This document shows, in pieces, positions 14,816 through 64,000 of a stretch of 64,000 nt of DNA (position 1 is its first letter; every line of letters starts with the position of its first letter). The stretch is from positions 1 to 64,000 of the forward strand of contig NZ_QJOW01000007.1 of the NCBI RefSeq assembly GCF_009184545.1, written 5' to 3'. Under the pieces are notes generated by a model. The model made no database searches. It was given only the letters and a program-made list of their open reading frames with translations, and was not told the origin of the DNA. Origin of the DNA: Halosegnis rubeus (GTDB lineage: Archaea > Halobacteriota > Halobacteria > Halobacteriales > Haloarculaceae). Both the position numbers and the translations under genes were made by a program.

Positions 14816-14835
14816 TCAGTAGATGTGAACGGACG

Positions 14836-16437: not shown

Positions 16438-16461
16438 GAACAAAGTGAAGGCGTCAGCGGC

Positions 16462-17934: not shown

Positions 17935-17976
17935 GGGATAGAGGCGTGACAGAGCGGTATAAATCTTGATTCGCCG

Positions 17977-35955: not shown

Positions 35956-36217
35956 ACGTCTGTAACAAGTGGCAATCGGAGTATCTAGCTCTTAACTCAG
36001 CCAGCTAACTGATCGCGGTTCCCCTGCCGCCCGCAGTATATCAACGCTTTATTTCGGCCCGAGTACCTCAACTGCTTCCGTCAACATCTTGTTATCACAA
36101 TTGATTTTCAAGGGTGAATAGCTGTACCCTATATTTATCGAGCCAATTCTATTGGGGCCGATATGAGATGGTTCTGTTAGTGAAAGCATAATATAGCGGA
36201 ACAACAATATACGATGT
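35956..36217. promoter_or_regulatory. AT-rich divergent region with kinase promoter
   Basis: The gap is clearly AT-richer than the chromosome to its left. CATAATATA at 36188-36196 lies about 26 bp before ATG 36218 and is a good TATA box for a leaderless kinase transcript. A second AT-rich box, CCTATATTTAT, lies near 36,128. I see no repeats or RNA gene. Confidence 0.5.
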
Positions 36218-43395: not shown

Positions 43396-43662
43396 ACGCT
43401 GTTGAGGGCCTCTGGATATTGGTGTACCTTTCAGTATAGGCTCAAATTCCCCCACCCCATTACATATGCCAATAATGATTAATACTCACAACTGCCCTAT
43501 GTAGGACACATACGTGTACCTCGAAATTGGCCATAGGGCTAAAGTTAATACAGGCTCCAGCCGATATCTAATGATATTTACTTTTGGAATCTCCGGATGA
43601 TATCTACTATAGCACTGCTGATCCCGCGTGAGCTGGTACGTTTTAACCTATTTTACTTATAA
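43396..43662. other. AT-rich gap before the giant gene, with long-range hairpin
   Basis: 267 bp. Arms GCCCTATG (43494-43501) and CATAGGGC (43532-43539) can form a stem enclosing ACACATACGTGT, itself partly palindromic. TTTTAACCTATTTTACTTATAA directly before ATG 43663 supplies TATA-like sequence, but the spacing to the start is shorter than usual. An in-frame TAA sits immediately before the ATG, fixing the N-terminal limit of the next gene. Confidence 0.4.
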
Positions 43663-46600
43663 ATGAAGGCCTACGCTGCGCTATTTAGTGCTCTCATTCT
43701 CATTTCAGTCACGATTATACCCGCTGTTGGTTTTGGAGCCGCTTCTAACCAGCCGGCTCTGGATAGTAATGTCCAGATAACAATCGAAGAGGATTCAAAA
43801 ATAAATCAAATTACTAATACCTCGTTAGATTCGAGTGATCCAGACGGCGATTCAATCACGTACAACGTTTCTGTTGGCGTCTTGAACGGCACACTGTTTG
43901 TCGATGGGAGTGGGAGCGGATCTGTAAACGAACTCCTTGACGGCGGCGAAGCCGTCGAGACGGGATTGTTCACGCAGGCAGACATCGACGATGGGAGTCT
44001 GTACTACAGCCACGACGGCTCCGAGTCGGCGAACGACAGCTTCGAGTTTGATGTTACAGACGGAAACGGCAGTTCGTCTGGCCCCCACACGTTCAGTATC
44101 AACGTGACGGCGGTTGATGACCCGCCAACACTGACGACGAGTTCGGCCGGGACCAACTATACGGCGTCGGCCGGCGGCTTTGTTGTCGACGAAAACCTGA
44201 CTGTGACCGATCCGGACGGTGGGACGATCGACGGAGCGACCGTCGCTATCGGGTCAGGATTTGATGCGGATGTGGATACACTCGTGGTGAACAGCACCGC
44301 GGTGTCGGATGCCGGTCTCACCAGCAATTATGATACTTCCAGAGGTGTGCTGACGCTCGAGGGGACCGTGTCGGCTGCCGAGATGCAGACGGTTCTGCGA
44401 ACGGTCACCTACACCTACTCGGGCGAGACCACGGCGTCGGCGCGCGACCTCGACGTGTCGTTCGCGCTGGGAACCGATACTGGTGGGAATGTGGAGTACC
44501 TCCCGGAAACCGGCCACTTCTACGAGTACGTCTCGACGGATGAGACGTTTCGGGGTGCCGAGCAGGCAGCTGCCAACCGCTCGTATCTCGGATTGTCTGG
44601 GTACCTGACGACGGTAACCAGCGCACAAGAGGATACCACGGTCACAGACCTCTCCGGACCAGCATGGATCGGGGCCTCCGATAGGGTTGAAGAGGGTAAC
44701 TGGACATGGATTACAGGTCCGGAAAAGGGGACGCAATTCTGGCAGGGAGCAGACGATGGGTCGGTAAAAAACGGGCTGTACGCCGGTTGGGATAGCAGTC
44801 AGCCGCAGGCCGACCGGGGAGATGAAGACGGTGTTGTGATAAACGCGTACGCTACCCCGTGGCACGACGAATTCATCGATCAAGGGACGTCCTATGGATA
44901 CGTCGTTGAGTACGGCGGTCTGAGTGGCGACCCGTCGGTGACAGCCGAGCGAACCGTCACGGTCGATACCGACGCGCCGACGGTGACGACGAGTTCGAGC
45001 GGGACCGATTACACGTTTACTGATGGCGGGTTCGTGGTCGACGACCAGCTGACCGTGACCGACCCGGACGGTGAGGCAATCAACGGGGCGACCGTCGCCA
45101 TCGGGTCGGGCTTCGACGCGAGCGTGGACAGACTTGCGGTGAACAGCACCGCGGTGTCGGATGCCGGCCTCACCAGCAGTTATGATACTTCCAGAGGTGT
45201 GCTGACGCTCGATGGGACTGCGTCGGCCGGTGAGATGCAAGCAGTTCTGCGAACAGTCACCTACACTTATTCGGGCAAGGCCACAGCATCAGCGCGCGGC
45301 CTCGATGTGTCGTTCGCGCTGGGAACCGGCGGTAACATCGTGTTCGACCCGACGACTGACCACTACTATGAGCACGTTTCGCAGGGGAAGAACTTCGACA
45401 ATGCGAAAACAGCAGCCGCAAGTAACACACACCTCGGGCAAGCGGGCTATCTGGCTACAATCACCAGTGAGCGAGAGGACGAGACTATCTTCAATCTGAC
45501 ACCGAATAGGGTCTGGATCGGGGCATCCGACGAGGCCACAGAGGGCAACTGGACCTGGGTCACCGGATCAGAGAACGGGACGCAGTTCTGGAGTGGTGAT
45601 GGATCTGGAACCGTGGTGAATGGTGGGTACGACGGATGGGGTGAGTATGGGAACGGTCCTGAACCACAAGGCGGCACCTACGCCGTGGCCCACAATCAGA
45701 ATCAGATAGGGTGGTTTGACTCGGGGGACGGCACCAATGAATACATCGTTGAGTACGGCGGGCTGAACGGTAGTTCTTCGACGACCGCCCAGCGAACCCT
45801 CACAGTCGATACCGAGGCACCGACACTGACGACGAGTTCGGGATCGGTATCGAACACCACCGCGAGTGGCAGCCACCTCGTCGACGACAAGCTGACCGTG
45901 ACTGACCCGGACGGCGGGACGATCGACACTGCGACGGTGAGTATCGACCAAGGATTCGATCCGAACAGTGACAAACTCTCATTAAATACGACCGTCGCCG
46001 CCAATCGTGGGATAACGAGCACGTACGACGACACGACGGGCGTGCTGAACGTCTCAGCGAACAGTTCGGCCACGGTGACGGCCGACGACTTCCAAGCGGT
46101 CCTTCGTACTGTTACGTACAATTTCACCGGAACGTCGGCCACCAACGAGTCGGAGCGGACCGTGCCGATCAGGTTCGCACTGGATGCGAATCAAAAACAG
46201 GTCACCGCGTACGACGGACATTACTACGAATTCGTTTCAGACAGTGTGAGTTGGAAAACCGCCAAGCGCGACGCCGAGAACCGGTCTCACCTCGGGTTAC
46301 AAGGTTATCTCGCGACGCTGACGAGTCAGGAAGAGGACGACGAAATCCAGAGCAAGTTTACCGATAGGGCGTGGATCGGTGCGTCCGACGAGGACACGGA
46401 GGGTGACTGGACCTGGGTCACCGGCCCGGAGAACGGAACGTTGTTTTGGAAGGGAGCCAGCTCTGGCTCCGAGCAAAACGGGGAGTACGCTGGATGGACA
46501 GACAACAACCCGAGTAATCATAACGGAAATGAGCACTATGCAGAGATCAATTGGAAAGGTGGTTGGAACGATCACAAGCTAGAGAGTGATAATGCACAAG

Positions 46601-49600
46601 GCTACCTCGTCGAATACGGCGGCCTGACGACCGACTCGGCGATCACCGCCCAGCGAAACGTCACGGTCGACACCGGCGCACCGAACGTCACCAACGTCAC
46701 GATCAGACGAACCAGCGGCGGCGGTGTCGTCACGACGAACGACACGATCGAAGTGAGCGCCACCGTGACCGACGCGTCTCCGATCCGGTCGGTCACTGCC
46801 TCCGCGAGCGCGTTCGATGCGGGGACGGTACATCTCAGCGACGACGGCCCGAACTCCAGCGCTGCCGACGACGTGTACAGCGCGACGTTCACCGTCGGCC
46901 CGGACCCGATCGAGCGGACCCAGTCGGTGACCGTTCGCGCGACCGACGACGCCGGAAACGGCGGCACTCCACCGGGAGACCTCGTGTACGACTCGATCAC
47001 GGTCAACCCAGAGGGGACGACCGACTTTCGTACCGTCACGCTCCCGCGCTCGTTCGAGAATCCCGTCGTCATCGCGAAGCCGCTGGAGTCGACCTCTCCC
47101 GGAAAAGCCGGGAGCAACGTCCCGAACGATCTGCGCGGGACCCCACGAGTTCGGAACGTCCAGTCGACGTCCTTCGAGATTCGCGTCGAGGAGTGGTCGG
47201 TCCAGGACGACGAGACACACCCCCCGGCGAACGTCTCGTACATCGTGGCCGAGGCCGGCACGACGACACTGGACGGCGGCACGAAAGTCTCCGCTGGGAC
47301 GATCGAGTTGAACGAAAACGATGGATTCCAGCCGATCACGTTCGAGGAGTCACTCAACAATCCCGTCGCGTTCGCCAACGTACAGACGGCTAACGACATG
47401 GATTCGGTCAGCACACGCGACAAAAGTGTCGATTCGAACGGGTTCAGTTCAAAGATCGAAGGCGACCAAGGCGATCAGGACAGTGGGACAGAACCGAATC
47501 CACACGGAACCGAGACGCTGGGGTACATCGCCATCGAACAGGGGGACTCGGCGCTGGGCGAGACCGGGTTCACTGCTGGTACGCGAGGCAACGTCGACGA
47601 GAATTTGGCCAGCATCAACTTCGGCGGCTCGTACCCGGCTGGCTTCGTTGCCGCTATGCAGACGAACAGTGGAGGTGAAGAATCGTACCTTCGATACGAC
47701 GGTCGAACCGACACCGGTGTCGAGGTTCGAATCGAAGAGGATCCAGTCGACAACAGCGATGGTCACATCAGCAACACTGTCGGCTATCTCGCCTGGAACG
47801 AAAGCACCCAAGTGACCGGCACCCGGTCGAACGGGCTTTCGGTCGACACGTCCGCGCCGCGGATCGACGACCTGTCCGCATCGCGCACCACCGGCAACCC
47901 GCCGGTCTCGACCGGAGACAAGTTCCGGGTGACGGCGACCGTGACCGACGCCGGGGCCGTCTCGACGGTCGAGGCCGACGTCGCTGCGCTGGACGCAGAT
48001 CCCGGAACGATCACGCTCGACGCCGTCGGTACCGACACGTACGAAGGGACGTTTGAGGTCGGAGGGAACCCCGACCCGACGCGAGCGGTCGCCGTGACCG
48101 TGACAGACTCGCTGGGGAACAATGCCAGCGCAACGACGATTGCCGGGAGTCAGGCGTCGTGGGACCACACGGTCAACGGCACCGTCCAGACCGGCACGTT
48201 TGCCGGTAACGGCTCGACGGTGGACCCGTACATCATCGACTCGCTCGTCGATCTACAGGCGATCAACAAGAACGCCACCACGCGCGGGTACAACTATCAG
48301 CTGGGCTCCGACCTCGACGCCTCGGCCACGCGGTCGTGGAACGTGCCCAGCGAACACGGGGAAGGGTTCGCGCCGATCGGTGGGCTGTTTGGCATCGACA
48401 GCGGTGCCGCATTTAGTGGCTCGCTCGACGGCGGCGGCCACACGATATCGAACCTGTCGATCGATCAGAGTGCGACTACAAAAAACGAGCTCGGGTTCGT
48501 CGGGACACTGGAATCGGGTGGTGTGGTTCGGAACCTCGCTCTCACGAACGTCTCGGTCGTCGGTGACAGACACATCGGTGCGGTGGTCGGAGAAAGCGCT
48601 GGGACTGTCCAGAACGTCACCGTATCAGGGACGGTCGAGGGCCGCCAGGAAATCGGTGGCGTCGTTGGGACTGTCACGTCTGGAGGGACTGTGAACAACG
48701 TCAGCGCGAGCGTGACTGTCACCGCGAGCGGGCAGTACGTCGGTGGGCTCATCGGTGATCACCAGAGTTCGACGCCGGTGACCGACGTGAACGCCTCGGG
48801 GGCTGTCACCGGAACCAGCTACACTGGCGGCCTCGTCGGGCGGGCGCGGACCGGCGTCATCAACGCCTCCGCCAGCGGCGACGTGACGAGCACGTCCGGC
48901 GGGTACGCTGGCGGGCTTGTGGGATATTTGAACGCGTACGATGATGAGGTGGTCAGAGCCGTCAAAGCGACAGGCAACGTCTCTGCAGGCAGTGCCCACG
49001 TGGGTGGGCTCGTCGGGTACGTGGACCAGAACTCGGGCAGTGATGAGGTCACGATGTCCGACGCTCACGCCACCGGCGATGTCAATACGACGAATAGCGG
49101 TAGTAACGCGTACGTCGGCGGGCTCGTTGGTCGCTTCCACGAAAGCAGGGATCTTACCGACGTCTCTGCCACCGGCGACGTTACCAGCGCAACTGGCAGC
49201 TATGTCGGCGGCTTGGTCGGTCGACTGCGAATGGAAAACGGTAATCAGGTCGTCAGTAACGTCTCCGCGACCGGCAACGTCACCACCACGGGAGACAGGA
49301 TTGGGGGATTGATCGGGAGCCACGAGGACGGTCAGACAATCAGCAACGCCACGGCGACCGGTGACGTGTCGACTGCGGGAGATTATGTCGGCGGGCTTGT
49401 CGGTAACACACGAGCGTCGATCACGAACGCCAGCGCAAGCGGTGAGGTCACCACGGACGGACAGGAAGTCGGCGGGCTCGTGGGATACTTAGAGGCGCAC
49501 TCCGACGAGGTGGTCAAGGCCGTCAAAGCGACAGGCAACGTCTCTGCTGGTAGTTCCAACGTGGGTGGGCTCATCGGGTACGTAGACCAGAGTTCGGACA

Positions 49601-52600
49601 GTGACGAAGTCACGATGTCTGACGCCCACGCCACCGGCGATGTCAGTACGACGTACGATGCTGGAGGTAACGCACAGGTGGGCGGGCTCGTTGGTCGCTT
49701 CCACGAAAGCAGAGACCTCACGAACGTCTCTGCCACCGGCGACGTTACCAGTGCAACTGGCAACTATGTCGGTGGCCTGATTGGCCGGCTCCAAATGGAA
49801 AACGGCAATCAGATTGTCAGCAACGCCTTCGCGACCGGGGCTGTCACCTCCACGGGAGACAGGGTCGGTGGGCTCATGGGCGATTCTAACGGGATCATCA
49901 CCGACTCGTACGCTCACGGTGCTGTCAGCACCACAGGGCAGCGGGTCGGTGGACTGGTCGGGAGCCACCAGGATGGGCCGATCAGGAATGTCACGGCGAC
50001 CGGCGACGTGTCGACTACGGGACGCAAAGTCGGCGGGCTCGTCGGCTACACACAAACGTCCGTCACGAACGCCAGCGCGAGTGGTGAGGTCACCACTGAT
50101 GGGCAGGAAGTTGGCGGGCTTGTTGGAGAGCTGGACGCGCACTCCGACGAGGAGGTCAGGACTGTCACGGCGACAGGCAACGTCTCTACAGGTAGCTACT
50201 ACGTAGGTGGGCTCATCGGGTTCATAGACCAGAGCGGTACCAACGCTCAGTATCACGAAGTCACGATGTCTGACGCCCACGCCACCGGCGATGTCAGTAC
50301 GACGTACGATGCTGGAGGTAACGCGTTCGTCGGCGGGCTTGTTGGTGACTTCCGAGATAGCAGGGATCTCACAACCGTCTCTGCCACCGGCGACGTTACC
50401 AGTACAACCGGCAGCTATGTCGGTGGCCTGGTTGGCCGGCTCCGATTGGATAACGTCAATCAGATTGTTAATAATGCCTCCGCGACTGGCAACGTCACCA
50501 CCTCCGGGACCTACGTCGGCGGATTGATCGGGAGCCACGAGGGCGGTCAGACAATCAGCAACGTCAGGGCGACCGGTGACGTGTCGACTGCGGGAGATTA
50601 TGTCGGCGGGCTTGTCGGCCGGACACGGGCCTCTATCACGAACGCTACCGCGAGTGGTGAGGTCACCACCAATGGACAGCGAGTCGGCGGGCTTGTGGGG
50701 TATCTGGACGCATACTCCGACGAGGAAGTGAGGACTGTCACGGCGACGGGCAACGTCTCCGCTGGCGGGCAATACGTAGGTGGGCTCATCGGGTACGTGG
50801 ACCGGAGTGGCACCAACGCTCAGTATCATGAAGTCGCGATGTCTGACGCCCACGCCACCGGCAACGTTACCACGACGTACGCCGGGGCTAGCAACGCCTA
50901 CGTGGGCGGACTCGTCGGCCGCTTCCGCGATAGCAAACACGTCTCCGACGTCTCCGCCACCGGCGACGTCACAAGTGAAAGTGGGAACGAAGTCGGTGGC
51001 TTGATCGGCCGACTCCGACAGGACAGCACGGCGTATGACCTCAGGAACGCCTCTGCGACCGGCGATGTCACTACCACGGGTCAAAAAGTCGGCGGACTGA
51101 TTGGGTATCATACTGGTGGTAGCGTCGAAACCTCATACGCACGAGGGAACGTCTCCACCGATGGTGACCACGTGGGTGGACTCATCGGCCAGTCTACCAA
51201 CCTTGTTGCCGACTCGTACGCGCGCGGTGACGTCACCAGCTCGGGGGACGAAGTCGGTGGACTCGTCGGTCGTCACGGCGATGAAGCGACTCGCGTGTAC
51301 GCCAGCGGACGCGTCGAGGGCGGGAGCACCGTCGGCGGACTCGTCGGGAACAACAACGGAGCACTCTCGGACGCCTACTGGGATAGAGGCGCGACCAACC
51401 AGACGACCGCGACCGGAAGCGGCCCGTCGGAGGGCGCGACCGGCTACGGGACAGTCGGTGACTCCCGCGCGCTGAAGATGCAGGGCCGAGCGCCGACGAC
51501 ATTCATGAAGTCGTTGAACTACACGTCGCCGTGGAAGCTCACGAGTACGTATCCGGTCTTCCAGCGGGAGTCGAATACGACCGGGCCCTCGATTTCGCCT
51601 ATTGGCTCGATGGAGGCCTCCGACACGACAGCACTGCAGACCGAGCAGACGACGATCGACGTCACCGCGACGGTCGACGGTAACCCTGCTGACGCAGGCT
51701 ATGTGATCCGTGTCGACAACGCGGACGGCCTCACCGAACTCGCGGACGCCGGGGCCGTGACCGACGCGAACGGCACTGCAACGTTCACCTTCGCCGAATC
51801 AGCAATCGGGACGTTCACGCCGGGGTTCAGCGCGGCTGGTGAATCGACCGTCTCGACGACCGCGACGGTCGAGGTGGAGCCGGGCACAGTGCGGACGTAC
51901 ACTCGTGATGACGGCACCGAGCTGACGGCGACGTATCCCGGTAACGGGACGGACACGGGCCCGTACCTCCTTGACTCGCTCGCGGATCTCCAAGCGATCA
52001 ACATCAACGCGACCACGCGTGGTGAACAGTACCGACTCGCCGAGGATATCGACACGTCGGCGACGAACAACGCCTCCTGGAACAGCGGCAGCGGCTTCGA
52101 GCCGATTGCGGGTGAGAGCGGAACATTCGACGGTACGCTCGACGGAGACGGGCACACAATCTCGAATCTATCTGTCAATCGGAGCGACACGAGTACGGCT
52201 GGGCTCATCGGCACGCTCGATTCGAACGGGGTGATCCGGAATCTGACGCTTCAGGACGCCTCGATCACTGGGAACGACGACCTCGGTGTGATAGCCGGGA
52301 CCAGCGACGGAACGATCCAGAACCTGACCATCGAGAACGCCTCTGTCACCGGGAACAACGACCTCGGTGTGGCAGTCGGAATCAACAACGGCAGAGTCGA
52401 GAACGTCACCGCTTCAGGGACCATCAGCGGAAACGATCGGATTGGTGGTCTCGTCGGGACGATTGAGGCCAGCGGGACTGTCACCGGTGCAACCACCACC
52501 GCGACTGCAAGCGGCAGCCAGTCTATCGGCGGACTGGTCGGGGAGAGTAGCGGCGCGGTGAACAACGCCAGTGCGAGCGGGACTGTCACCGCGACCGGGC

Positions 52601-55600: not shown

Positions 55601-58600
55601 CCACGAGTACGTATCCGATCTTCCAACGGGAGTCGGAGACGGCCGGAAGTCTGCTCGCAACTGTCGACACCGTTGAAGCCACCGGCACAACCGGAGTTCA
55701 GACACAGCAGTTGACAGTCGAGGTCAACGCGACAATCAATGGCAGCCGTGTCGGCCCTGGATACTTCATCAACGTCTCGGATCCGAACGGCCTCGCCGAA
55801 CTCGAAGGCCAAACAGCTCTGACCGATCGGAATGGCACCGCGACGTTCATGTTCGCCGAACCGACGACTGGCACCTTCGAGCCGACGTTCGTTGCGGTGA
55901 GCGATTCGAGTGTCACGGCGACCACGACGGTGGTAGTGAACGAGGGAACCGCACGAACCTACATCCGTGAGGACGGCACAGAACTGACCGCGGTGTACAC
56001 TGGAAACGGTACCGCTGACAATCCGTACCTGATCGACTCACTTGCGGATCTCCAGGCGATCGACAACAGCAGTGCTGCGCGTACCGACGCCTACCGGCTA
56101 GCCGCCGATATCGACGCGTCGGCGACGAACGATGCCTCTTGGAACGGTGGCGACGGGTTCGAATCGATCGGCAGTGTCTCCGGGGAGACGTTCGACGGCA
56201 CGCTGGACGGCGACGGGCACACCATTTCGAATCTGTCGGTTAACCAGAGAGACACGAGCACAGCTGGGCTCGTTGGCAAGCTGAGCTCGGGCGGAACGAT
56301 TCAGAATCTGACAATCCAGAACGCCTCGGTCACTGGGAGTGACGAACTTGGTGTGATAGCCGGGACCAGCGACGGAACGATCCAGAACCTAACCGTCGCG
56401 AACGCCTCGGTGAACGGGAATAACGACCTCGGCGTGGCAGTCGGAACCAACGACGGCACGGTCCAGAACGTGTCCGGTTCGGGGACCGTCAGCGGGAACG
56501 ATCGGATTGGTGGTCTCGTTGGAACCGTCAATAGTGGCGGTGTCGTCACCGAAGCGACTGCAACGGCGGCCGCAAACGGGAGCCAGTCCGTCGGCGGACT
56601 GGTGGGACAGAGTAGCGGGACGGTGAACAACGCCAGTGCGAGCGGGACTGTCACCGCGACCGGGCAGTACGCTGGTGGACTCATCGGCTATCATCAGAGT
56701 TTGACGTCGGTGACCGACGTGAACGCATCCGGATCTGTCACCGGGACAAGCAACACTGGCGGGCTAATCGGTTGGGGAGAGGCGAACGTAATTAACGCCT
56801 CCGCCGGCGGCGACGTGAACGGCACGTCTGGCGATGATGTCGGCGGCCTCGTCGGGTATTGGAATGTGCGTGAAAGCGGTCAGCGCATAACGAACGTCAC
56901 CGCCTCGGGGAACGTTTCTGCGGATGGACAGCAGGTCGGTGGACTCGTCGGATTCGTCGACAAGGATGAGTCTGGTACTGCGTATTCCAGCAAGATTTCC
57001 AACGCACACGCTACCGGCGATGTTAGCGCAACAGGCCGGCGAGTTGGCGGGCTTGTCGGACTGTTTGAGGAGAGCCAAGATCTCAGTAATGTCTCGGCTG
57101 CCGGCGATGTCACAGGAGGTAGCTTGCAAGTTGGTGGCCTAGTCGGGGTACTGAATCACGCAGACGGGGCGTATGTCGTCAGAAACGCCTCGGCGACCGG
57201 CAATGTCACAGCTACGGGACGACGAGTTGGTGGACTGATCGGTGATATAGTTCGTGGCGGTGTCAAGAACTCGTACGCACGAGGGGACGTCTCCACCACT
57301 GGTGACAATGTAGGTGGGCTCATCGGGCGCTCTAATGACGGCGGGCCTATTGAGGATTCGTACGCGCGCGGTGATGTCACCAGTTCGGGGGATACTGTGG
57401 GCGGGCTTGTCGGAAGCACAAATACTGATGTAACCCAGGTGTACGCCAGCGGACGCGTCAAGGGCGGGAGCAGTGTCGGCGGACTCGTTGGCTCCGGTGG
57501 CACACTCGCGGACGCCTACTGGGACAAGGGTGCGACTAACCAGACGGATGCCACCGGAAGCGGCACACCGGCTGGAGCCACCGGCTTCGGCATAGTGGGT
57601 GACAACACCCGCGCTCTGAAGATGCAGGGTCGCGCCCCGACGCAATTCATGGCAGCGTTGGACTACACGTCACCGTGGAAGCTCACGAGCACGTATCCGA
57701 TCTTCCAGCGGGAGTCGAACACGAGTGGAAGCCTGGTTGCACCCGTCGACACGATTGAAGCTACCGGCACAACGGCGGTTCAGACACAGCGGATAACAGT
57801 TGGGGTCAACGCGACGATCAACGGCAGTCGCGTCGGTCCAGGATACCTCATCAACGTCTCAGATCCGAGTGATATCGCCGAACTCGAAGGCCAAACGGCT
57901 CTGACAGATCAGAATGGCACTGCGACGTTCACGTTCGCCGAACCGAACGTCGGGACATTCAAACCAGAGTTCGAAGCGGTGAGCGAGCCGAGTGTTACGG
58001 TGACCGCGACGGTGGAGGTAAAAGACGGAGCAGCACGGACCTATACCCGCGAAGACGGCACCGAGTTGACCGCGGTGTATCGCGGAAACGGGACGACCGA
58101 CAGTCCCTACGAGGTTGACTCGCTGGCTGATCTCCAGGCGATTGACAACAGCACCGCGGCACACGGTGATCACTACGCGTTGATCACGAATATCGACGCG
58201 TCTAGCACCAGTGAGTCGTCGTGGAATGGTGGCAGCGGGTTTGAGTCGATTGCGGCTGACACTAACGAGGCATTCACTGGCACACTCGACGGCAACGGGC
58301 ACACGATATCGAATCTCTCGGTTGACCGAAGCGGAGCGAACAGAGCAGGCCTCGTCGGCAATCTCGGTTCGGACGGATCGATTCAGAACCTGACGATTCA
58401 GAACGCCTCGATCACCGGGAACAACGGCGCCGGAGCCGCAGTCGGGACCAGCGCCGGTACTGTCGAGAACGTCACCACCTCGGGAACGGTCAACGGAAAC
58501 GATCGGGTTGGTGGCCTCATCGGCGAAACTATTGCTGATGGTGTTATTACTGGCTCGACTGCATCCGTGAATACATCCGGAAACCAGGCTATCGGCGGAC

Positions 58601-61600
58601 TGGTCGGACAGAGTAGCGGCGCGGTGAACAACGCCAGCGCGAGCGGGGAAGTCACTGCGACCAGCAAGTATGCTGGCGGACTCATCGGTGATCACCAGAG
58701 TACGACGCCGGTGACCGACGTGAACGCGTCCGGAACCGTTAGTGGCACTGGAAGTGTAGGTGGTCTAATTGGTCGGACAAACATATCTCTCAGGAACGCC
58801 ACTGCCAGCGGCGACGTCAACGGTACTACCGCTGAAAATAAAGGTCAGATTGGTGGGCTAATAGGAGAGCTCCGTGTAGACCAGCCGACGACGATATCAG
58901 ACACGACTGCCACCGGAGCGGTCTCTGCGGATAATAAGTATGTGGGCGGTCTGATTGGGAACGCAGTAGGCGGGGATACCGCCCCCATCAACATCTCGGG
59001 TGCCCGGGCGCGTGGGACAGTAACACAGACGGATTCGACGATTGGGAGTGTACGAGCTGGAGGCCTCGTTGGACGGCTCAGGTACGGTGGGAATGTCACC
59101 AATGTCTCTGCAACCGGCGATGTCACAAGCGAGGGCGGAAACCGTGTCGGTGGGCTGTTCGGTGAACTCAATCACAAATCTGCCTCGAGCACCGTAGCGA
59201 ACGCCTCCGCAACCGGCGATGTCGACGCCACTACCGGGTCAAATGTCGGTGGACTGATTGGTGCATATATCGATGGAGGTACAATAAAAACCTCGTACGC
59301 ACGAGGCAACGTCTCCACCTCCGGAGACAATGTCGGTGGCCTCGTCGGCGAAGCGAACGGAAATATAAAGCGCGTGTACGCCACCGGACGCGTCGAGGGC
59401 GATGGTACTGATATCGGCGGACTCGTCGGGATCAGTACCGGACAGCTCTCCGAGGCCTACTGGGACAAAGGCGCGACCGCCCAGACGGACGCGACCGGAA
59501 GCGGCACACCGGCTACAGTGACCGGCTACGGATTGGTCGGCGACACCACGCCGGCACCGCGGATGCAAGGCAGAGCAGCGACTGAGTTTATGTCCGGGCT
59601 GGACTACACGACCACTTGGAACACCACGCGAGGCTATCCAGTCTTGCAGGCACAAACGACCGGAACCAAACAGCTACCTCGCACGGTTGACAGGGTCGAG
59701 GCCACAAACGCGAGTGGGGTTCAGTCAGAGCAGTTCTCGATCGCTGTCACGGTAACGACGACTGGCACCAGCACGGCTGAGGGGCTCATCGTGGGCGTTC
59801 GGGACGCCGCCGGTCTCACCAGCCTCGATAACGCCACGGCCGTGACGAACGAGACGGGGACCGCGACGTTCACCATCACCGAATCGTCGCCGGACACGTA
59901 CAGTCCGACATTTAGCGTAGTCGGCAATTCGACTGCAACGACAAACGCGACGATCACCGTGGACAATGGAGCGGTGCGAACCTACACCCGCGAAGACAAC
60001 ACGGAGTTGACGGCGGTGTACCGCGGGAACGGGACGCCCGACAGTCCGTACCTGATCGACACACTCGCCGATCTCCAGTCGATCAACATCGACTCCACAA
60101 CGCGGGGCGAGCACTACCAACTGGCGGCCGACATTAACGCGTCCGCCACCAACGAGTCGTCGTGGAACGGTGGTCGTGGGTTCGAGCCGATTACAGACTT
60201 CACGGGCTCACTCGCCGGTGACAGGCACGTAATCTCAAACCTGTCGATCGATCGCGGAGATGAACCGAACGTCGGCCTGTTCGGCGACACCGACCCGGCC
60301 AGTAGCATTACCAACGTAACCCTTGCTAATCCTGCTGTCACAGGTCAAATGGGAACCGGACCGCTCGTCGGCACACATGGAGGGTCGATCAGCCGGACTG
60401 TGGTGATCGGTGGAATGGCGACAACGGGAGCGAGCGGTGAGGCACACCTCGGCGGACTGGCTGGCGTGCTCGTCGCCGGTTCGGAGATCACCCAGTCACA
60501 GACGTCTGCGATTGTCGATGCGAACGGACAAAACGAAGCGGGTGGCCTCGTTGGGGATATGGATTCTGACGCTCGTGTCGAGCAAGTGTCCGCGACTGGT
60601 GGCGTCAAGAATGGGGGGAGCGAGATCGGTGGGCTGGCTGGTGATGCAAACGACGGCTCCGAAATCGTTGGAGCGTTTGCCGCCGGAAACGTCTCGGGAA
60701 CGAGTAATGTTGGTGGCCTCCTCGGTCGGCAAGACGGTGGTGCCGTAACCGTCGAACTGGCATACTGGGACGAACAGTCGACCGGCCAGAGCAGCAGTGC
60801 AGGTGACACCGAAACTGCCCTGTCGACCGCCAAGATGCAGGGTCGGGCGGCGACCGAGTTCATGACCGGGCTGGACTACGCGACCACGTGGAACACTACG
60901 CGGGGCTATCCCGTCTTGCAGGCCCAGCCAGTCGGAACCGAACAGCCACCTCGCACGGTCGACACGGTCACAGCTGTCAACGTGAGCGCGGTTCAGTCCG
61001 AGCAGGTCTCGATCCCGGTCACCGTGACGACGGCCGGCACCGAAACCGGCGAGGGATTCGTCATCGGTGTCCGAGACCACGACAAGCTCGGCGAGCTTGA
61101 CGGCGCTACGGCCGTGACCGCCGAGAACGGGACCGCGACGTTCAGCTTTGCCGAATCGGTGAACGACAGTTACAATCTGACATTCGTCGTGTCCGGCGAT
61201 CCGTCGGCCACGGCAAACGCGACGATACTCATCAAACAGGGAACGGTACGCACGTACACCCGCGAAGACGACACAGACTTGACCGCAGTGTATGCGGGGG
61301 CTGGGACACCCGAGAGCCCATATCTTATTGACTCGCTCGCAGACCTCCAGGCGATCGATAACAGCAGCGCGGCCCGTAACGACCACTATCGGCTGGACGC
61401 AAATATCGACGCATCGGCGACGAACGATTCCTCATGGAACGGTGGCAGCGGGTTCGAGCCGATCGCGAGCGCTTCCGGGGAGACGTTCGACGGCTCCATC
61501 GACGGCGACGGGCACACGGTCTCGGGCCTGTCGGTCGACCGGACGGATGCGAACGCGGTCGGACTGGTCGGCGAACTCGGCACGACCGGTGTGATGTCGA

Positions 61601-64000
61601 ACCTGACCGTCGCGAACGCCTCGGTCGCCGGAAACGACGACGTCGGCGTGGCAGTCGGAACAAGCGCCGGCACGGTCCGGAACGTCATCGCTTCGGGAAC
61701 GGTCAGCGGGAACGATCGGATCGGTGGCCTCGTTGGTAACGTCGACACCGACGGTGTCGTCACCGACGCGACCGCGGCGGCGACTGCGAACGGAAGCCAA
61801 GCCATCGGCGGACTGGTCGGGAAGAGCAGCGGATCAGTGAACAACGCCAGTGCGAGTGGGACCGTCACCGCGAGCGCGGCGTACGCTGGCGGGCTCATCG
61901 GGCGTCACGCGACTACGACTCCGGTGGCTGACGTAAGCGCGTCCGGATCTGTTAACGGGACGAACTACGCTGGCGGGCTCGTCGGGTTCACGACCGGCGA
62001 TGTGGCTCGGGCGTACGCCAGCGGTCTGGTCGAAGGCGGCAACAATGTCGGCGGACTCGTTGGCTCCGGTGGCACACTCGCGGACGCCTACTGGGACAAG
62101 GGTGCGACTAACCAGACGGATGCCACCGGAAGCGGCACACCGGCTGGAGCCACCGGCTATGGGTCTGTTGGAGACACCACGCCGGCACCGAGAATGCGGG
62201 GGCAAGCGGCGACCGAGTTCATGTCCGGGCTGGACTACGCGACCACGTGGAACACTACGCGGGGCTATCCCGTCTTGCAGGCCCAGCCAGTCGGAACCGA
62301 ACAACCGCCTCGAACGATTCAGACGGTTGCGGCGGCCAACGTGAGCGCGGTTCAATCCGAGCAAGTCCCGATCTCGGTCACCGTGACGACGGCCAGCGCC
62401 GAGACCGCCGAGGGACTCATCGTAGGCGTTCGAGACACAGACGGCCTCGGCGAACTCGATACCGCAACAGCCGTGACCGGCGCGAACGGCATCGCGACGT
62501 TCACCGTCACCAAATCGAACGCTGGAACATTCACACCGACGTTTGACGTGGCTGGGTACCCCTCGGTCGTGGCAAACACGACGCTCACCGTAGAAACCGG
62601 CGTAGTGCGAACCTTCACCCGCGAGGACGGTGAAAAACTGACGGCGGCCGCCCCCGGCAACGGCACCGCCGACAGTCCGTACTTGATCGACTCACTCGCG
62701 GATCTTCAGGCAATCGACAACAGCACCAAAGCGCGTGAAGACCACTACCGGCTGGTAGCCGACATCGACGCATCTGTGACGAACAACACCTCGTGGAACG
62801 GTGGTAGCGGCTTCGAGCCGATTGGCGGTGCCACCGGGACGTTCACCGGCACGCTTGACGGCAATGGCTACGCGATCTCAGGCCTGTCGGTCAACCGGAG
62901 TGACGCGAGCACGGCCGGGCTCGTCGGCGAACTCGGCACGGACGGTGTGGTGACGAATCTGACCCTGCAAAACAGCTCGGTCACCGGGAGCGACAACGTC
63001 GGATCGGTGGTCGGGACGAGTGCCGGCAGCGTTCAAAACACGACCGCCTCCGGAACAGTCAACGGAAACGGCCGAGTCGGCGGACTCGTCGGAAATGTCA
63101 CGCCGGCTGGCGCTATCACCGATTCTTCGGCGGCGGTGACTACCTCCGGGACACAACGCGTTGGCGGGCTGGCGGGAGAGAGCAGCGGCAGGGTTACCAA
63201 CGCTACCGCCAGCGGGGCGGTCACCGCAGCCGACGGATACGCTGGTGGCCTCGTCGGAGCCCTCAACGCTCAGTCGAACGAATCCATCACGAACGTCTCC
63301 GCGATAGGGACCGTCTCCGCGGGCGGGCAGTACGTGGGTGGTCTGATCGGAGCGGCCAACGCAAGCACTGATAATCATCTCACGATGTCTAACGCACGAG
63401 CCACCGGGGACGTCGACACCACGTTCAGTGGCGCCGAGGCGTACGTGGGTGGGCTCGTCGGCTCGCTCGTCGACGGCCGAGCCCTCACCGACGTGTCTGC
63501 GGCCGGCAACGTCACGAGTGCGAGCGGCAACAATGTCGGCGGACTAGCCGGCCGGGTGCGCCTCCAGAACGCTGCCAGTGTCGTGACCAACGCCTCGGCG
63601 ACCGGCGATGTCACCACCACCGGGTCGAGGGTCGGCGGGCTGATCGGCTCCCAAGAGAATGGGAGGACGGTCACCGCTTCCGCACGAGGAAACGTTTCAA
63701 CGGACGGTGACTCCGTGGGAGGGCTCGTTGGCAACGCGGCCATCAGTCAAATCAGCGACTCGTACGCCCGCGGAGACGTGACTACCTCGGGAACGGATGT
63801 CGGTGGCGTCGTTGGCACGCTAACTGGTAACGTCACACGCGCGTACGCCACCGGGAAGATTGAGGCAAGCGGTACCGCTGGTGGACTCGTTGGCTCCGGC
63901 GGACAGCTCTCTGAGGCCTACTGGGACAAAGGAGCGACCACACAGACCTCGGCAATCGGGAGCGGGGTCGACACCTCCGAGACGGTGCGCGGCTACGGGT
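43663..64000 (+). CDS. Giant exported surface protein (lectin-like and GLUG repeats), 3' end outside window
   Basis: One frame stays open from ATG 43663 to the window edge: at least 6,779 codons with no stop (I read each codon row). TAA directly precedes the ATG. Residues 1-28 are a signal peptide (AALFSALILISVTIIPAVGFGA). Residues about 40-155 are a CSPG/cadherin-like domain (FTQADIDDGSLYYSHDGSE). Three beta-sandwich plus C-type-lectin-like units end at about 424, 701 and 987 (WIGASD, EGxWTWxTG). About 1007-1111 is Ig-like; about 1113-1383 resembles H-type lectin, twice; about 1395-1493 is Ig-like. Seven GLUG blocks follow from about residue 1500. N-x-S/T sequons are dense, and the only cysteines I noticed are two near residue 3720. 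Halomucin-class adhesin or capsule-like protein by analogy; the C-terminal anchor is not visible. Confidence 0.9.
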   Translation, partial: MKAYAALFSALILISVTIIPAVGFGAASNQPALDSNVQITIEEDSKINQITNTSLDSSDPDGDSITYNVSVGVLNGTLFVDGSGSGSVNELLDGGEAVETGLFTQADIDDGSLYYSHDGSESANDSFEFDVTDGNGSSSGPHTFSINVTAVDDPPTLTTSSAGTNYTASAGGFVVDENLTVTDPDGGTIDGATVAIGSGFDADVDTLVVNSTAVSDAGLTSNYDTSRGVLTLEGTVSAAEMQTVLRTVTYTYSGETTASARDLDVSFALGTDTGGNVEYLPETGHFYEYVSTDETFRGAEQAAANRSYLGLSGYLTTVTSAQEDTTVTDLSGPAWIGASDRVEEGNWTWITGPEKGTQFWQGADDGSVKNGLYAGWDSSQPQADRGDEDGVVINAYATPWHDEFIDQGTSYGYVVEYGGLSGDPSVTAERTVTVDTDAPTVTTSSSGTDYTFTDGGFVVDDQLTVTDPDGEAINGATVAIGSGFDASVDRLAVNSTAVSDAGLTSSYDTSRGVLTLDGTASAGEMQAVLRTVTYTYSGKATASARGLDVSFALGTGGNIVFDPTTDHYYEHVSQGKNFDNAKTAAASNTHLGQAGYLATITSEREDETIFNLTPNRVWIGASDEATEGNWTWVTGSENGTQFWSGDGSGTVVNGGYDGWGEYGNGPEPQGGTYAVAHNQNQIGWFDSGDGTNEYIVEYGGLNGSSSTTAQRTLTVDTEAPTLTTSSGSVSNTTASGSHLVDDKLTVTDPDGGTIDTATVSIDQGFDPNSDKLSLNTTVAANRGITSTYDDTTGVLNVSANSSATVTADDFQAVLRTVTYNFTGTSATNESERTVPIRFALDANQKQVTAYDGHYYEFVSDSVSWKTAKRDAENRSHLGLQGYLATLTSQEEDDEIQSKFTDRAWIGASDEDTEGDWTWVTGPENGTLFWKGASSGSEQNGEYAGWTDNNPSNHNGNEHYAEINWKGGWNDHKLESDNAQGYLVEYGGLTTDSAITAQRNVTVDTGAPNVTNVTIRRTSGGGVVTTNDTIEVSATVTDASPIRSVTASASAFDAGTVHLSDDGPNSSAADDVYSATFTVGPDPIERTQSVTVRATDDAGNGGTPPGDLVYDSITVNPEGTTDFRTVTLPRSFENPVVIAKPLESTSPGKAGSNVPNDLRGTPRVRNVQSTSFEIRVEEWSVQDDETHPPANVSYIVAEAGTTTLDGGTKVSAGTIELNENDGFQPITFEESLNNPVAFANVQTANDMDSVSTRDKSVDSNGFSSKIEGDQGDQDSGTEPNPHGTETLGYIAIEQGDSALGETGFTAGTRGNVDENLASINFGGSYPAGFVAAMQTNSGGEESYLRYDGRTDTGVEVRIEEDPVDNSDGHISNTVGYLAWNESTQVTGTRSNGLSVDTSAPRIDDLSASRTTGNPPVSTGDKFRVTATVTDAGAVSTVEADVAALDADPGTITLDAVGTDTYEGTFEVGGNPDPTRAVAVTVTDSLGNNASATTIAGSQASWDHTVNGTVQTGTFAGNGSTVDPYIIDSLVDLQAINKNATTRGYNYQLGSDLDASATRSWNVPSEHGEGFAPIGGLFGIDSGAAFSGSLDGGGHTISNLSIDQSATTKNELGFVGTLESGGVVRNLALTNVSVVGDRHIGAVVGESAGTVQNVTVSGTVEGRQEIGGVVGTVTSGGTVNNVSASVTVTASGQYVGGLIGDHQSSTPVTDVNASGAVTGTSYTGGLVGRARTGVINASASGDVTSTSGGYAGGLVGYLNAYDDEVVRAVKATGNVSAGSAHVGGLVGYVDQNSGSDEVTMSDAHATGDVNTTNSGSNAYVGGLVGRFHESRDLTDVSATGDVTSATGSYVGGLVGRLRMENGNQVVSNVSATGNVTTTGDRIGGLIGSHEDGQTISNATATGDVSTAGDYVGGLVGNTRASITNASASGEVTTDGQEVGGLVGYLEAHSDEVVKAVKATGNVSAGSSNVGGLIGYVDQSSDSDEVTMSDAHATGDVSTTYDAGGNAQVGGLVGRFHESRDLTNVSATGDVTSATGNYVGGLIGRLQMENGNQIVSNAFATGAVTSTGDRVGGLMGDSNGIITDSYAHGAVSTTGQRVGGLVGSHQDGPIRNVTATGDVSTTGRKVGGLVGYTQTSVTNASASGEVTTDGQEVGGLVGELDAHSDEEVRTVTATGNVSTGSYYVGGLIGFIDQSGTNAQYHEVTMSDAHATGDVSTTYDAGGNAFVGGLVGDFRDSRDLTTVSATGDVTSTTGSYVGGLVGRLRLDNVNQIVNNASATGNVTTSGTYVGGLIGSHEGGQTISNVRATGDVSTAGDYVGGLVGRTRASITNATASGEVTTNGQRVGGLVGYLDAYSDEEVRTVTATGNVSAGGQYVGGLIGYVDRSGTNAQYHEVAMSDAHATGNVTTTYAGASNAYVGGLVGRFRDSKHVSDVSATGDVTSESGNEVGGLIGRLRQDSTAYDLRNASATGDVTTTGQKVGGLIGYHTGGSVETSYARGNVSTDGDHVGGLIGQSTNLVADSYARGDVTSSGDEVGGLVGRHGDEATRVYASGRVEGGSTVGGLVGNNNGALSDAYWDRGATNQTTATGSGPSEGATGYGTVGDSRALKMQGRAPTTFMKSLNYTSPWKLTSTYPVFQRESNTTGPSISPIGSMEASDTTALQTEQTTIDVTATVDGNPADAGYVIRVDNADGLTELADAGAVTDANGTATFTFAESAIGTFTPGFSAAGESTVSTTATVEVEPGTVRTYTRDDGTELTATYPGNGTDTGPYLLDSLADLQAININATTRGEQYRLAEDIDTSATNNASWNSGSGFEPIAGESGTFDGTLDGDGHTISNLSVNRSDTSTAGLIGTLDSNGVIRNLTLQDASITGNDDLGVIAGTSDGTIQNLTIENASVTGNNDLGVAVGINNGRVENVTASGTISGNDRIGGLVGTIEASGTVTGATTTATASGSQSIGGLVGESSGAVNNASASGTVTATGQYAGGLIGDHQSSTPVTDVNASGAVTGTSYTGGLIGRGQADVINASANGDVTSTSGDRVGGLIGNHNPNQAATIRNVSASGNVSGSGNRVGGLVGTSESGNQITVSNVHATGDVATTNTGTYAYAGGLFGRLRHATDVTDVSATGDVNASSTPGNGRRVGGLAGELHHDSANYILTNASANGDVDATGEKVGGLIGYHDKGRTINNVTATGDVSTVGKKVGGLLGETDASVIRESSASGDVTSTSGDRVGGLIGNHNPNQAATIRNVSASGNVSTSGQKVGGLVGSSDTNDQITVSNAHATGDVNATETGTNSYVGGLFGRLRHAVDVTNVSATGDVSAQDNSYGRQVGGLFGELHHDSANYILTNASANGDVDATGQRVGGLIGYHQNGEVVRDATATGDVSGGAGYAGGLIGDHTNGETIENVSAIGDVASDGDYTGGLFGRVSASVSNSSASGTVTSTSGGYVGGLVGQYNPSQAATIANVSASGDVSTSGNRVGGLVGQAFSGSNKPITVSDAHASGAVNATDAGNTAYAGGLVGEFQNAGNLTDVSATGDVSAQASADGRDVGGLVGSLQHNSGSYVVANASATGNVNATGQRVGGLIGNLKGGRSVEASYAKGDVSTSGDTAGGLIGQSVEVPITDSYARGDVNSSGNNVGGLVGYTTADITNASASGDVTSTSGRHVGGLIGQWKLNADDGRFGSSSSALAGHQMVNATASGNVSADNKYIGGLVGQVSSGSDCAREFVDFGIACRSGTQVRGYAPISDAHATGDVNTTYDGDGNGDAHVGGLIGGMEGARQLTNLSASGEVTSASGDRVGGLIGNVNHADGNYGITNASATGNVSTTGQNVGGLIGRYFGGGSVETSYARGNVSTSGNYVGGLIGSTSEPITDSYARGDVNSSGDAVGGLVGSTTGDVTRTYASGRVKGGGSSVGGIVGSNGGTLSDAYWDKGATNQTTATGSGPSEGATGYGTVGDTRALEMQGRAPTTFMKSLNYTSPWKPTSTYPIFQRESETAGSLLATVDTVEATGTTGVQTQQLTVEVNATINGSRVGPGYFINVSDPNGLAELEGQTALTDRNGTATFMFAEPTTGTFEPTFVAVSDSSVTATTTVVVNEGTARTYIREDGTELTAVYTGNGTADNPYLIDSLADLQAIDNSSAARTDAYRLAADIDASATNDASWNGGDGFESIGSVSGETFDGTLDGDGHTISNLSVNQRDTSTAGLVGKLSSGGTIQNLTIQNASVTGSDELGVIAGTSDGTIQNLTVANASVNGNNDLGVAVGTNDGTVQNVSGSGTVSGNDRIGGLVGTVNSGGVVTEATATAAANGSQSVGGLVGQSSGTVNNASASGTVTATGQYAGGLIGYHQSLTSVTDVNASGSVTGTSNTGGLIGWGEANVINASAGGDVNGTSGDDVGGLVGYWNVRESGQRITNVTASGNVSADGQQVGGLVGFVDKDESGTAYSSKISNAHATGDVSATGRRVGGLVGLFEESQDLSNVSAAGDVTGGSLQVGGLVGVLNHADGAYVVRNASATGNVTATGRRVGGLIGDIVRGGVKNSYARGDVSTTGDNVGGLIGRSNDGGPIEDSYARGDVTSSGDTVGGLVGSTNTDVTQVYASGRVKGGSSVGGLVGSGGTLADAYWDKGATNQTDATGSGTPAGATGFGIVGDNTRALKMQGRAPTQFMAALDYTSPWKLTSTYPIFQRESNTSGSLVAPVDTIEATGTTAVQTQRITVGVNATINGSRVGPGYLINVSDPSDIAELEGQTALTDQNGTATFTFAEPNVGTFKPEFEAVSEPSVTVTATVEVKDGAARTYTREDGTELTAVYRGNGTTDSPYEVDSLADLQAIDNSTAAHGDHYALITNIDASSTSESSWNGGSGFESIAADTNEAFTGTLDGNGHTISNLSVDRSGANRAGLVGNLGSDGSIQNLTIQNASITGNNGAGAAVGTSAGTVENVTTSGTVNGNDRVGGLIGETIADGVITGSTASVNTSGNQAIGGLVGQSSGAVNNASASGEVTATSKYAGGLIGDHQSTTPVTDVNASGTVSGTGSVGGLIGRTNISLRNATASGDVNGTTAENKGQIGGLIGELRVDQPTTISDTTATGAVSADNKYVGGLIGNAVGGDTAPINISGARARGTVTQTDSTIGSVRAGGLVGRLRYGGNVTNVSATGDVTSEGGNRVGGLFGELNHKSASSTVANASATGDVDATTGSNVGGLIGAYIDGGTIKTSYARGNVSTSGDNVGGLVGEANGNIKRVYATGRVEGDGTDIGGLVGISTGQLSEAYWDKGATAQTDATGSGTPATVTGYGLVGDTTPAPRMQGRAATEFMSGLDYTTTWNTTRGYPVLQAQTTGTKQLPRTVDRVEATNASGVQSEQFSIAVTVTTTGTSTAEGLIVGVRDAAGLTSLDNATAVTNETGTATFTITESSPDTYSPTFSVVGNSTATTNATITVDNGAVRTYTREDNTELTAVYRGNGTPDSPYLIDTLADLQSINIDSTTRGEHYQLAADINASATNESSWNGGRGFEPITDFTGSLAGDRHVISNLSIDRGDEPNVGLFGDTDPASSITNVTLANPAVTGQMGTGPLVGTHGGSISRTVVIGGMATTGASGEAHLGGLAGVLVAGSEITQSQTSAIVDANGQNEAGGLVGDMDSDARVEQVSATGGVKNGGSEIGGLAGDANDGSEIVGAFAAGNVSGTSNVGGLLGRQDGGAVTVELAYWDEQSTGQSSSAGDTETALSTAKMQGRAATEFMTGLDYATTWNTTRGYPVLQAQPVGTEQPPRTVDTVTAVNVSAVQSEQVSIPVTVTTAGTETGEGFVIGVRDHDKLGELDGATAVTAENGTATFSFAESVNDSYNLTFVVSGDPSATANATILIKQGTVRTYTREDDTDLTAVYAGAGTPESPYLIDSLADLQAIDNSSAARNDHYRLDANIDASATNDSSWNGGSGFEPIASASGETFDGSIDGDGHTVSGLSVDRTDANAVGLVGELGTTGVMSNLTVANASVAGNDDVGVAVGTSAGTVRNVIASGTVSGNDRIGGLVGNVDTDGVVTDATAAATANGSQAIGGLVGKSSGSVNNASASGTVTASAAYAGGLIGRHATTTPVADVSASGSVNGTNYAGGLVGFTTGDVARAYASGLVEGGNNVGGLVGSGGTLADAYWDKGATNQTDATGSGTPAGATGYGSVGDTTPAPRMRGQAATEFMSGLDYATTWNTTRGYPVLQAQPVGTEQPPRTIQTVAAANVSAVQSEQVPISVTVTTASAETAEGLIVGVRDTDGLGELDTATAVTGANGIATFTVTKSNAGTFTPTFDVAGYPSVVANTTLTVETGVVRTFTREDGEKLTAAAPGNGTADSPYLIDSLADLQAIDNSTKAREDHYRLVADIDASVTNNTSWNGGSGFEPIGGATGTFTGTLDGNGYAISGLSVNRSDASTAGLVGELGTDGVVTNLTLQNSSVTGSDNVGSVVGTSAGSVQNTTASGTVNGNGRVGGLVGNVTPAGAITDSSAAVTTSGTQRVGGLAGESSGRVTNATASGAVTAADGYAGGLVGALNAQSNESITNVSAIGTVSAGGQYVGGLIGAANASTDNHLTMSNARATGDVDTTFSGAEAYVGGLVGSLVDGRALTDVSAAGNVTSASGNNVGGLAGRVRLQNAASVVTNASATGDVTTTGSRVGGLIGSQENGRTVTASARGNVSTDGDSVGGLVGNAAISQISDSYARGDVTTSGTDVGGVVGTLTGNVTRAYATGKIEASGTAGGLVGSGGQLSEAYWDKGATTQTSAIGSGVDTSETVRGYG
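44128..46623 (+). repeat. Triplicated beta-sandwich + C-type-lectin-like unit
   Basis: Three units of about 830-860 bp within the giant gene (44128-44934, 44980-45765, 45826-46623). Each starts with LTVTDPDGG-type sequence and a VLRTVTYTYSG strand, then the lectin-like part: HxYEYVS, LGxxGYLxTxTSxxED, WIGASDxxxEGxWTWxTG, FW, and VEYGG. Only unit 3 keeps NNPSNHNGNEHYAEI and WND, the pattern used for Ca2+/sugar contact in classic C-type lectins; units 1 and 2 have WHD and WFD. None has the disulfide cysteines. Units 1 and 2 are most alike. Confidence 0.75.
47002..47810 (+). repeat. Tandem H-lectin-like modules in the giant gene
   Basis: Two related segments (about 47002-47300 and 47320-47810). 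The first reads FENPVVIAKPLE ... RVRNVQSTSFEIRVEEW ... VSYIVAEAGT; the second has LNNPVAFANVQT ... YLRYDGRTDTGVEVRIEED ... VGYLAW. The order F-NPVV, arginine strand, xxxFEIRVEEW and a final YIV strand recalls H-type lectin/sugar-binding sandwiches seen in other giant adhesins. The assignment is by pattern only. Confidence 0.45.
48178..51579 (+). repeat. GLUG block A (about 30 motifs)
   Basis: It opens with a SLVDLQAIN / FSGSLDGGGHTISNLSID module and closes with DAYWDRGATNQT ... MQGRAPTTFMKSLNYTSPWK. Between are about 31 GLUG units of 25-40 residues, mostly of the form NxSATGDVTxxxxYVGGLVG. A higher-order unit of about 560-650 bp recurs with starts near 48,940, 49,498, 50,143 and 50,716 (SDEEVRTVTATGNVS-like). 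The fold is probably a right-handed beta-helix, one rung or so per unit. Confidence 0.85.
51589..55635 (+). repeat. Ig-like domain plus GLUG block B (about 32 motifs)
   Basis: The Ig-like leader (about 51589-51909) resembles those of blocks C-G. The opening is TRDDGTELTATYPGNGTDTGPY, DSLADLQAIN, then FDGTLDGDGHTISNLSVN. The closing cap is almost identical at DNA level to that of block A (51,370-51,600 against 55,430-55,650). It contains a tandem duplication of about 570 bp (52,744 and 53,314 starts) and the pair of cysteines near 54,823 and 54,853. Confidence 0.85.
55651..57720 (+). repeat. Ig-like domain plus GLUG block C (about 12 motifs)
   Basis: Same plan as block B but much shorter. The cap region 57474-57586 is identical over 113 bp to 62046-62158 in block F. 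Confidence 0.85.
57733..59660 (+). repeat. Ig-like domain plus GLUG block D (about 11 motifs)
   Basis: The Ig-like leader is very close to that of block C (both read GYxINVSDPxxIAELEGQTALTD-like sequence). The closing cap changes type here to TPAPRMQGRAATEFMSGLDYTTTWNTTRGYPVLQ, shared with blocks E and F. Confidence 0.85.
59689..60930 (+). repeat. Ig-like domain plus GLUG block E (about 4 motifs, divergent)
   Basis: The shortest and most diverged block. GLUG units include LGGLAG, AGGLVG, IGGLAG and VGGLLG. The cap is YWDEQSTGQSSS instead of YWDKGAT, then the common MQGRAATEFM element. DNA 60866-60944 is identical to 62225-62303 in block F. Confidence 0.82.
60955..62290 (+). repeat. Ig-like domain plus GLUG block F (about 5 motifs)
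   Basis: The leader is TVTAVNVSAVQSEQVSIPVTVTTAG, close to blocks E and G. The 3' half is a mosaic: one segment is identical to block C (62046-62158) and the next to block E (62225-62303). Confidence 0.82.
62317..64000 (+). repeat. Ig-like domain plus GLUG block G (about 10 motifs, runs off the window)
   Basis: Same plan. The window ends inside its closing cap (AYWDKGATTQTSAIGSG ... GYG), so the gene carries on with at least the rest of this cap and an unseen C-terminus. Confidence 0.82.

Follow-up and report, generated by a model that had tools for sequence, protein, structure and literature searches.

A giant halomucin-family gene and an adjoining potassium channel gene in a mobile sensor cassette of Halosegnis rubeus

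Results

The window, that is the whole stretch of 64,000 nucleotides which we analyzed, comprises positions 1-64000 of the 112,349-bp contig C10 of the Halosegnis rubeus genome (G000; 2.66-Mb, 12 contigs). On the plus strand it carries a gene for a multi-PAS/GAF sensor histidine kinase of 1,490 aa (36218..40690), assigned with Pfam and about 90% identical to DNA found on plasmids, and a gene for a regulator of 902 aa with the order response regulator-HalX-PAS-GAF-BAT-HTH_10 (40687..43395), assigned with Pfam and by cassette comparisons. Both genes belong to a mobile cassette; its left end (35402..36217) was placed where the homology with plasmids, with the congener G083 and with G123, a genome from another genus of the family, stops (35402-35408). 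Downstream of the regulator gene there is an AT-rich intergenic region (43396..43662, plus strand) with the TATA-like sequence TTTTAA about 25 nt before an ATG codon, and judged from this sequence the start is likely to be leaderless.

A frame on the plus strand begins with the ATG at 43663, which is preceded by an in-frame stop codon, TAA, at 43660. The frame is free of stops up to 63999, confirming the preliminary description, which had reported a single open frame of at least 6,779 codons cut at the right edge. It is incomplete only because of the window edge: on the flanking sequence of C10 it runs on and ends with a TGA at 71431-71433. The complete gene measures 27,771 bp, contains no Ns and encodes 9,256 aa (937 kDa, pI 4.26) with 228 N-glycosylation sequons and six cysteines. 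The window holds its 5′ 6,779 codons (43663..64000), annotated as the halomucin gene hmu1 from the reading of the frame, the ortholog and the halomucin identity. By our own estimate stops make up about 3% of random codons at the base composition of the gene, so that an open run of 9,256 codons cannot be due to chance. The gene is indeed among the largest archaeal genes, as had been stated, but it holds no record. The largest published protein of cultivated archaea, from a nanohaloarchaeon, is with 9,409 aa slightly longer (PMC10266531), and other databases may hold still longer archaeal proteins.

The domain anatomy supports the earlier reading as one coherent giant secreted protein and bears out the proposed order of signal peptide, sugar-binding-like domains and repeats. 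The protein starts with the signal peptide MKAYAALFSALILISVTIIPAVGFGA (43663..43740, end approximate), in which the N-terminal MK is followed by hydrophobic residues 6-24 of the Sec type (hydropathy peak 2.34 at residue 6); the ortholog described below is alike. Next comes a cadherin-like domain at aa 32-148 (43756..44106; Cadherin_3, PF16184, E 5.7e-15) and then three C-type lectin domains at 44449..44929, 45256..45777 and 46132..46632, the first of them free of cysteine. All three are supported by Pfam (Lectin_C, PF00059), by alignment and by PDB profiles, which match solved C-type lectins with a best E of 2.5e-7; with the cadherin-like domain they make up the adhesive N-terminal region. An AlphaFold model of one lectin domain made with three sequences reached a pLDDT of 41 and was set aside. 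The conserved post-lectin region (46627..47949), 76% identical to Haloquadratum J07HQX50, includes the site of antibody peptide 1.

The remainder of the window is filled by GLUG repeats in seven solenoid modules, with 105 GGLxG-type motifs before residue 6800. Module 1 (48160..51891; GLUG E 2.7e-124) is built from GGLxG rungs of 26-32 aa each. Modules 2 (51892..55953), 3 (55954..58035), 4 (58036..59976), 5 (59977..61248) and 6 (61249..62607) each carry an Ig-like linker, Big_1-like in module 2, and module 7 (62608..64000) is cut by the window edge and continues on C10. Module 2 is supported by Pfam and the module alignment, modules 3 to 5 by the module alignment, and module 6 by AlphaFold and a PDB fold match. 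Six of the seven modules were aligned and have a cap in common, besides rungs 26-32 residues long, an end marked by AYWD and a spacer of the Ig-like type. Module 6, modelled with AlphaFold from window sequences only, forms a beta-helix with a pLDDT of 75 overall and above 90 across most of residues 101-250. The best solved match is the beta-helix of IgA1 protease, both by fold (7uvl) and by sequence (E 1.8e-6). The solenoid thus has a fold like the N-terminal beta-helix region of IgA1 protease M26, but differs from that protein in that the Pfam scans brought up no peptidase catalytic domain.

Past the window halomucin continues as a stalk of beta domains, with cupredoxin-like, cadherin, PKD and carboxypeptidase-regulatory-like domains, an acidic linker, poly-Gly and a basic domain with three HHH_5 motifs; the Pfam matches to Big_1 and cadherin further along the protein are weak. 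The motifs HPFH and CGIHGGM in the cupredoxin-like stretch (C10:65140-65460, about aa 7160-7265) may be a site for binding copper, and G123 also has a cysteine at the matching place.

The linker at about aa 8570-8697 is rich in Asp, Glu and Ser and includes the poly-Gly. The C-terminal domain of 565 residues has a pI of 11.3, with 76 Arg and 12 Lys, which is odd for a haloarchaeal protein. In the last 1,310 aa Pfam detected HHH_5 and no ATPase domain. The preliminary description had suggested looking for a PGF-CTERM anchor at the C-terminus; no PGF motif occurs there (the sole PGF is at aa 2720), and the protein ends instead with the acidic linker, the poly-Gly and the helix-hairpin-helix domain. 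Hydrophobic stretches in this part are weak (Kyte-Doolittle 1.40 and 1.64 vs 2.2-2.3 in four segments of the channel described below). Owing to this weak hydrophobicity, and to one of the two published antibody peptides, which lies inside the C-terminal domain although the stain is seen outside the cells, membrane anchoring is uncertain and insertion of the C-terminus into the membrane is a guess; the basic domain could tether the protein to the membrane or to polyanions outside the cell. The helix-hairpin-helix tail (C10:70450-71430) resembles a stretch of plasmid-borne haloarchaeal PhaC proteins (48-51% over about 55 aa) and also DNA-repair proteins, and COG assignments may have placed halomucins under replication/repair because of this likeness (PMC11573180).

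With the C-terminal core of 238 aa as query we searched 392 genomes of the order. Matches were obtained in H. rubeus, in G123 and, as one strong distant match with 58% identity, in Haloquadratum walsbyi C23 (G200). The matching gene of C23 contains the published halomucin antibody peptide RGAAPAWLGVVSGPAATA and the halomucin RT-PCR primers pcr5f/6f/6r/7f/7r (PMC4378361, PMC1544339) and is therefore the halomucin gene. The H. rubeus protein is 73.6% identical to C23 halomucin over aa 7255-8593 (1,343 columns), 51-62% identical in solenoid stretches and 58% in the C-terminal core. The C23 sequence is masked with N over much of hmu1 and upstream, including the N-terminal part of the protein; for that part the homology is with J07HQX50, at about 50-78%, and with the antibody peptide site. 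Antibody peptide 1 of strain HBSQ001 is conserved at 15 of its 17 positions (NGLSVDTSAPRIDDLSA in H. rubeus, NELSVDTSAPQIDDLSA in HBSQ001). A frame of 15,179 aa in the C23 genome was rejected as a larger protein, since it reads through 32 kb masked as N (C3:120000-152000); the published length of C23 halomucin is 7,836-7,837 aa. Taken together, it is near certain from these comparisons that the 9,256-aa protein is a complete halomucin of the Hmu1 family. The comparison with halomucin in the preliminary description holds, though it had been drawn on size alone, whereas the sequence comparison reveals an ortholog.

Further relatives are those of Haloquadratum sp. J07HQX50, already described (PMC4330952), and of the archaeon A07HB70. 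For J07HQX50 one locus has been described (PMC4330952); at about 201.4-203.2 kb of its contig C1, some 12 kb from the published broken halomucin, we noticed a second halomucin C-terminal end with a channel gene of its own. The C-terminal domain was not found on the viral contigs and plasmids searched, nor in two further families (0/28 and 0/125 genomes). As far as the literature was covered, which is incompletely, intact halomucin is reported only from Haloquadratum and from environmental contigs of Lake Tyrrell, and an intact halomucin outside Haloquadratum looks new.

Within the family the gene is present in two of 146 genomes, H. rubeus and G123. The ortholog in G123 is an intact frame of 9,006 aa which can be aligned over most of its extent; between the two proteins whole repeat blocks have been gained or lost, and so has one lectin domain (three in H. 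rubeus, two in G123). In six aligned segments dN/dS is 0.19-0.27, and a value of about 0.2 means that the protein is under purifying selection and rules out a frame open by chance or made by the assembly. We had to consider an assembly artefact or a decaying pseudogene read through repeats, as the gene is highly repetitive and broken or gapped relatives occur in J07HQX50 and A07HB70. Given a single frame throughout without Ns, and an independent intact ortholog under selection in all six segments, we regard this as extremely improbable. Beside the halomucin cassette of G123 there is another GLUG-repeat protein of 1,608 aa, encoded on the minus strand of contig C7 (reverse-complement positions 14022-18845).

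H. rubeus and G123 share a collinear 38-kb block with sharp ends, from C10:35402 to about 73473. Its DNA identity is 81-86% in collinear stretches and 86% at both ends; the adjoining core genes are 69-78% identical. The cassette itself consists of the multi-PAS kinase, the response regulator with HTH_10, a HalOD1 protein and a second regulator, and into it halomucin and the channel gene are inserted as a segment of 28.97 kb (about C10:43392-72360). The cassette without this insert is found on at least three plasmids, from Haloplanus rallus, Halorubrum trapanicum and Halorientalis marina, and also in the congener G083. At 12 cassette loci the downstream part could be read; two have halomucin and ten lead straight to HalOD1. 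Among the ten empty cassettes are the most diverged of the readable ones as well as some from relatives within the two host genera, which makes insertion likelier than repeated loss. Target-site duplications or terminal inverted repeats were not detected at the insert ends beyond chance 8-mers. The G+C content is about 0.50 in the cassette vs 0.60-0.65 in halomucin. In the right part of the cassette (C10:72361-73766) H. rubeus is 94-95% identical to the plasmid copies and G123 only about 85%, which suggests that this flank recombined later.

Six nucleotides after the halomucin stop codon starts a gene for a Kv-type channel of 266 aa (C10:71440-72240) with the selectivity sequence TVGYGD, and the two genes are probably co-transcribed. 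A channel gene adjoins the 3′ end of halomucin at all six loci, namely in H. rubeus, G123, C23, A07HB70 and twice in J07HQX50, whose copies like that of H. rubeus have it beside the C-terminal domain. The halomucin-linked channels are 86-93% identical to the H. rubeus channel, whereas no other channel in 195 genomes of the order exceeds 58%; of 22 other channel homologs inspected, not one lies beside a halomucin end. This constant linkage together with the distinct channel group makes a specific partnership likely, and we consider the channel a likely dedicated partner of halomucin on these genomic grounds. One could argue that the channel is a passive neighbour, functionally unlinked and kept by chance or shared transfer, as in H. 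rubeus and G123 the two genes travel together on a single DNA segment and the linkage there counts as one event. However, the adjacency is also seen in Haloquadratum C23, in both copies of J07HQX50 and in A07HB70, and with 86% identity to C23 the channel is better conserved than the adjoining halomucin domain (58%), so that we judge a passive neighbour rather unlikely. A full-text literature search for halomucin and channel together found no paper. The constant channel neighbour and halomucin as cargo of a cassette look new and would be unexpected to a specialist.

Discussion

With 9,256 aa the H. rubeus protein is longer than Hmu1 of H. walsbyi, which has 9,159 aa in HBSQ001 and 7,836-7,837 aa in C23. 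Both share the signal peptide, the repeats, an acidic, Ser- and Gly-rich segment near the C-terminus, the conserved C-terminal domain, the antibody-peptide sites, the giant length and the downstream channel gene, and with HBSQ001 also the lectin region. They differ in the number of lectin domains (three in H. rubeus, two in HBSQ001, none in C23), and the H. rubeus gene is found in another family of the order, inside a PAS-kinase/response-regulator cassette and in a genome without NeuB. eHmu1 of Lake Tyrrell (7,243 aa) and the broken J07HQX50 copies (PMC4330952) are of the same family as well, but are shorter or broken and occur within Haloquadratum. The SPEARE giants of nanohaloarchaea (SVXNc_0300, 9,409 aa) are alike in size, acidity, Sec signal, a long beta-rich extracellular part and a distinct C-terminal part. 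They are, however, described with Ig-like tandem arrays and a VirB4/TraG-like ATPase that follows a membrane segment. In the H. rubeus protein there are beta-helices of GLUG repeats, lectins and a helix-hairpin-helix tail of basic character instead, and Pfam scans detected no ATPase domain.

We propose that halomucin would be exported via Sec and, once outside the cell, fold into an acidic, N-glycosylated fibre of great length. The lectin end may bind glycans of the own coat or of neighbours, the acidic GLUG rods would hold water and cations, and the basic end could hold the protein at the membrane, as a membrane-spanning part or attached to the surface. Together such fibres may form a hydrated coat of loose build that protects from desiccation and viruses, in line with the proposal for Haloquadratum halomucin. 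The halomucin-channel pair would have become inserted in a mobile cassette of two-component sensor genes and been carried along with it from genus to genus, and this location may put the pair under the environmental sensing of the cassette. For the whole of this explanation, that is halomucin identity, a hydrated lectin-bearing coat, a channel partner and transfer with the cassette, we estimate a probability of about 0.78.

The protective coat function is carried over to H. rubeus by homology and is so far a presumed one. In HBSQ001 halomucin was located outside the cells and loosely attached by immunofluorescence (PMC4378361); transcription of hmu in culture is low (PMC5496347). J07HQW1 and J07HQW2 have no halomucin gene and the copy of J07HQX50 is broken (PMC4330952), and therefore the function is not essential in Haloquadratum. 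A pairing of sialic-acid synthesis genes with lectin domains has been put forward as a hypothesis (PMC4378361). NeuB (PF03102) is absent from H. rubeus and G123 despite their three and two lectin domains, and thus a link between lectins and sialic acid is not supported in these organisms.

Instead of a coat the protein could primarily be a long adhesin with a lectin tip on a beta-helix stalk, serving in cell-cell or host-symbiont binding. The three C-type lectin domains and the cadherin-like domain at the N-terminus and the long solenoid stalk would fit such a role; attachment was suggested by Dyall-Smith et al. (PMC3119063), and host attachment has been proposed for the giant nanohaloarchaeal proteins (PMC10266531). 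But the lectin domains are dispensable, as they are missing from C23 halomucin (PMC3119063) and the G123 protein lacks one of the three, and the published stain shows loose clusters around the cells and no tight contacts. We therefore see attachment as a serious but lesser possibility and favour the coat. The coat might also serve chiefly as a barrier to halovirus adsorption which spread on the mobile cassette as a defence trait. This was suggested by Zenke et al. and is in keeping with the location on a mobile cassette and the patchy distribution (two of 146 family genomes), but mobility by itself is no proof of defence, and we hold a dedicated anti-virus shield to be unlikely.

Going further, halomucin and the Kv-type channel might form one physical device which moves between genera as cargo of the sensor cassette. 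The charged external fibre, tethered by the basic C-terminal domain, would then act on the channel or sense for it, so that the external water and ion state or the mechanical load on the coat gates the potassium flux. This is speculative and we give it only a slim chance.

Up to now halomucin has been a Haloquadratum curiosity, studied in hosts whose growth is very slow and which are said to be difficult to maintain in culture. With intact orthologs in two other genera, and with matched relatives whose cassettes are free of the gene, its role becomes testable by comparison and by gene removal, and the constant potassium-channel neighbour provides a concrete clue to the function of halomucin.
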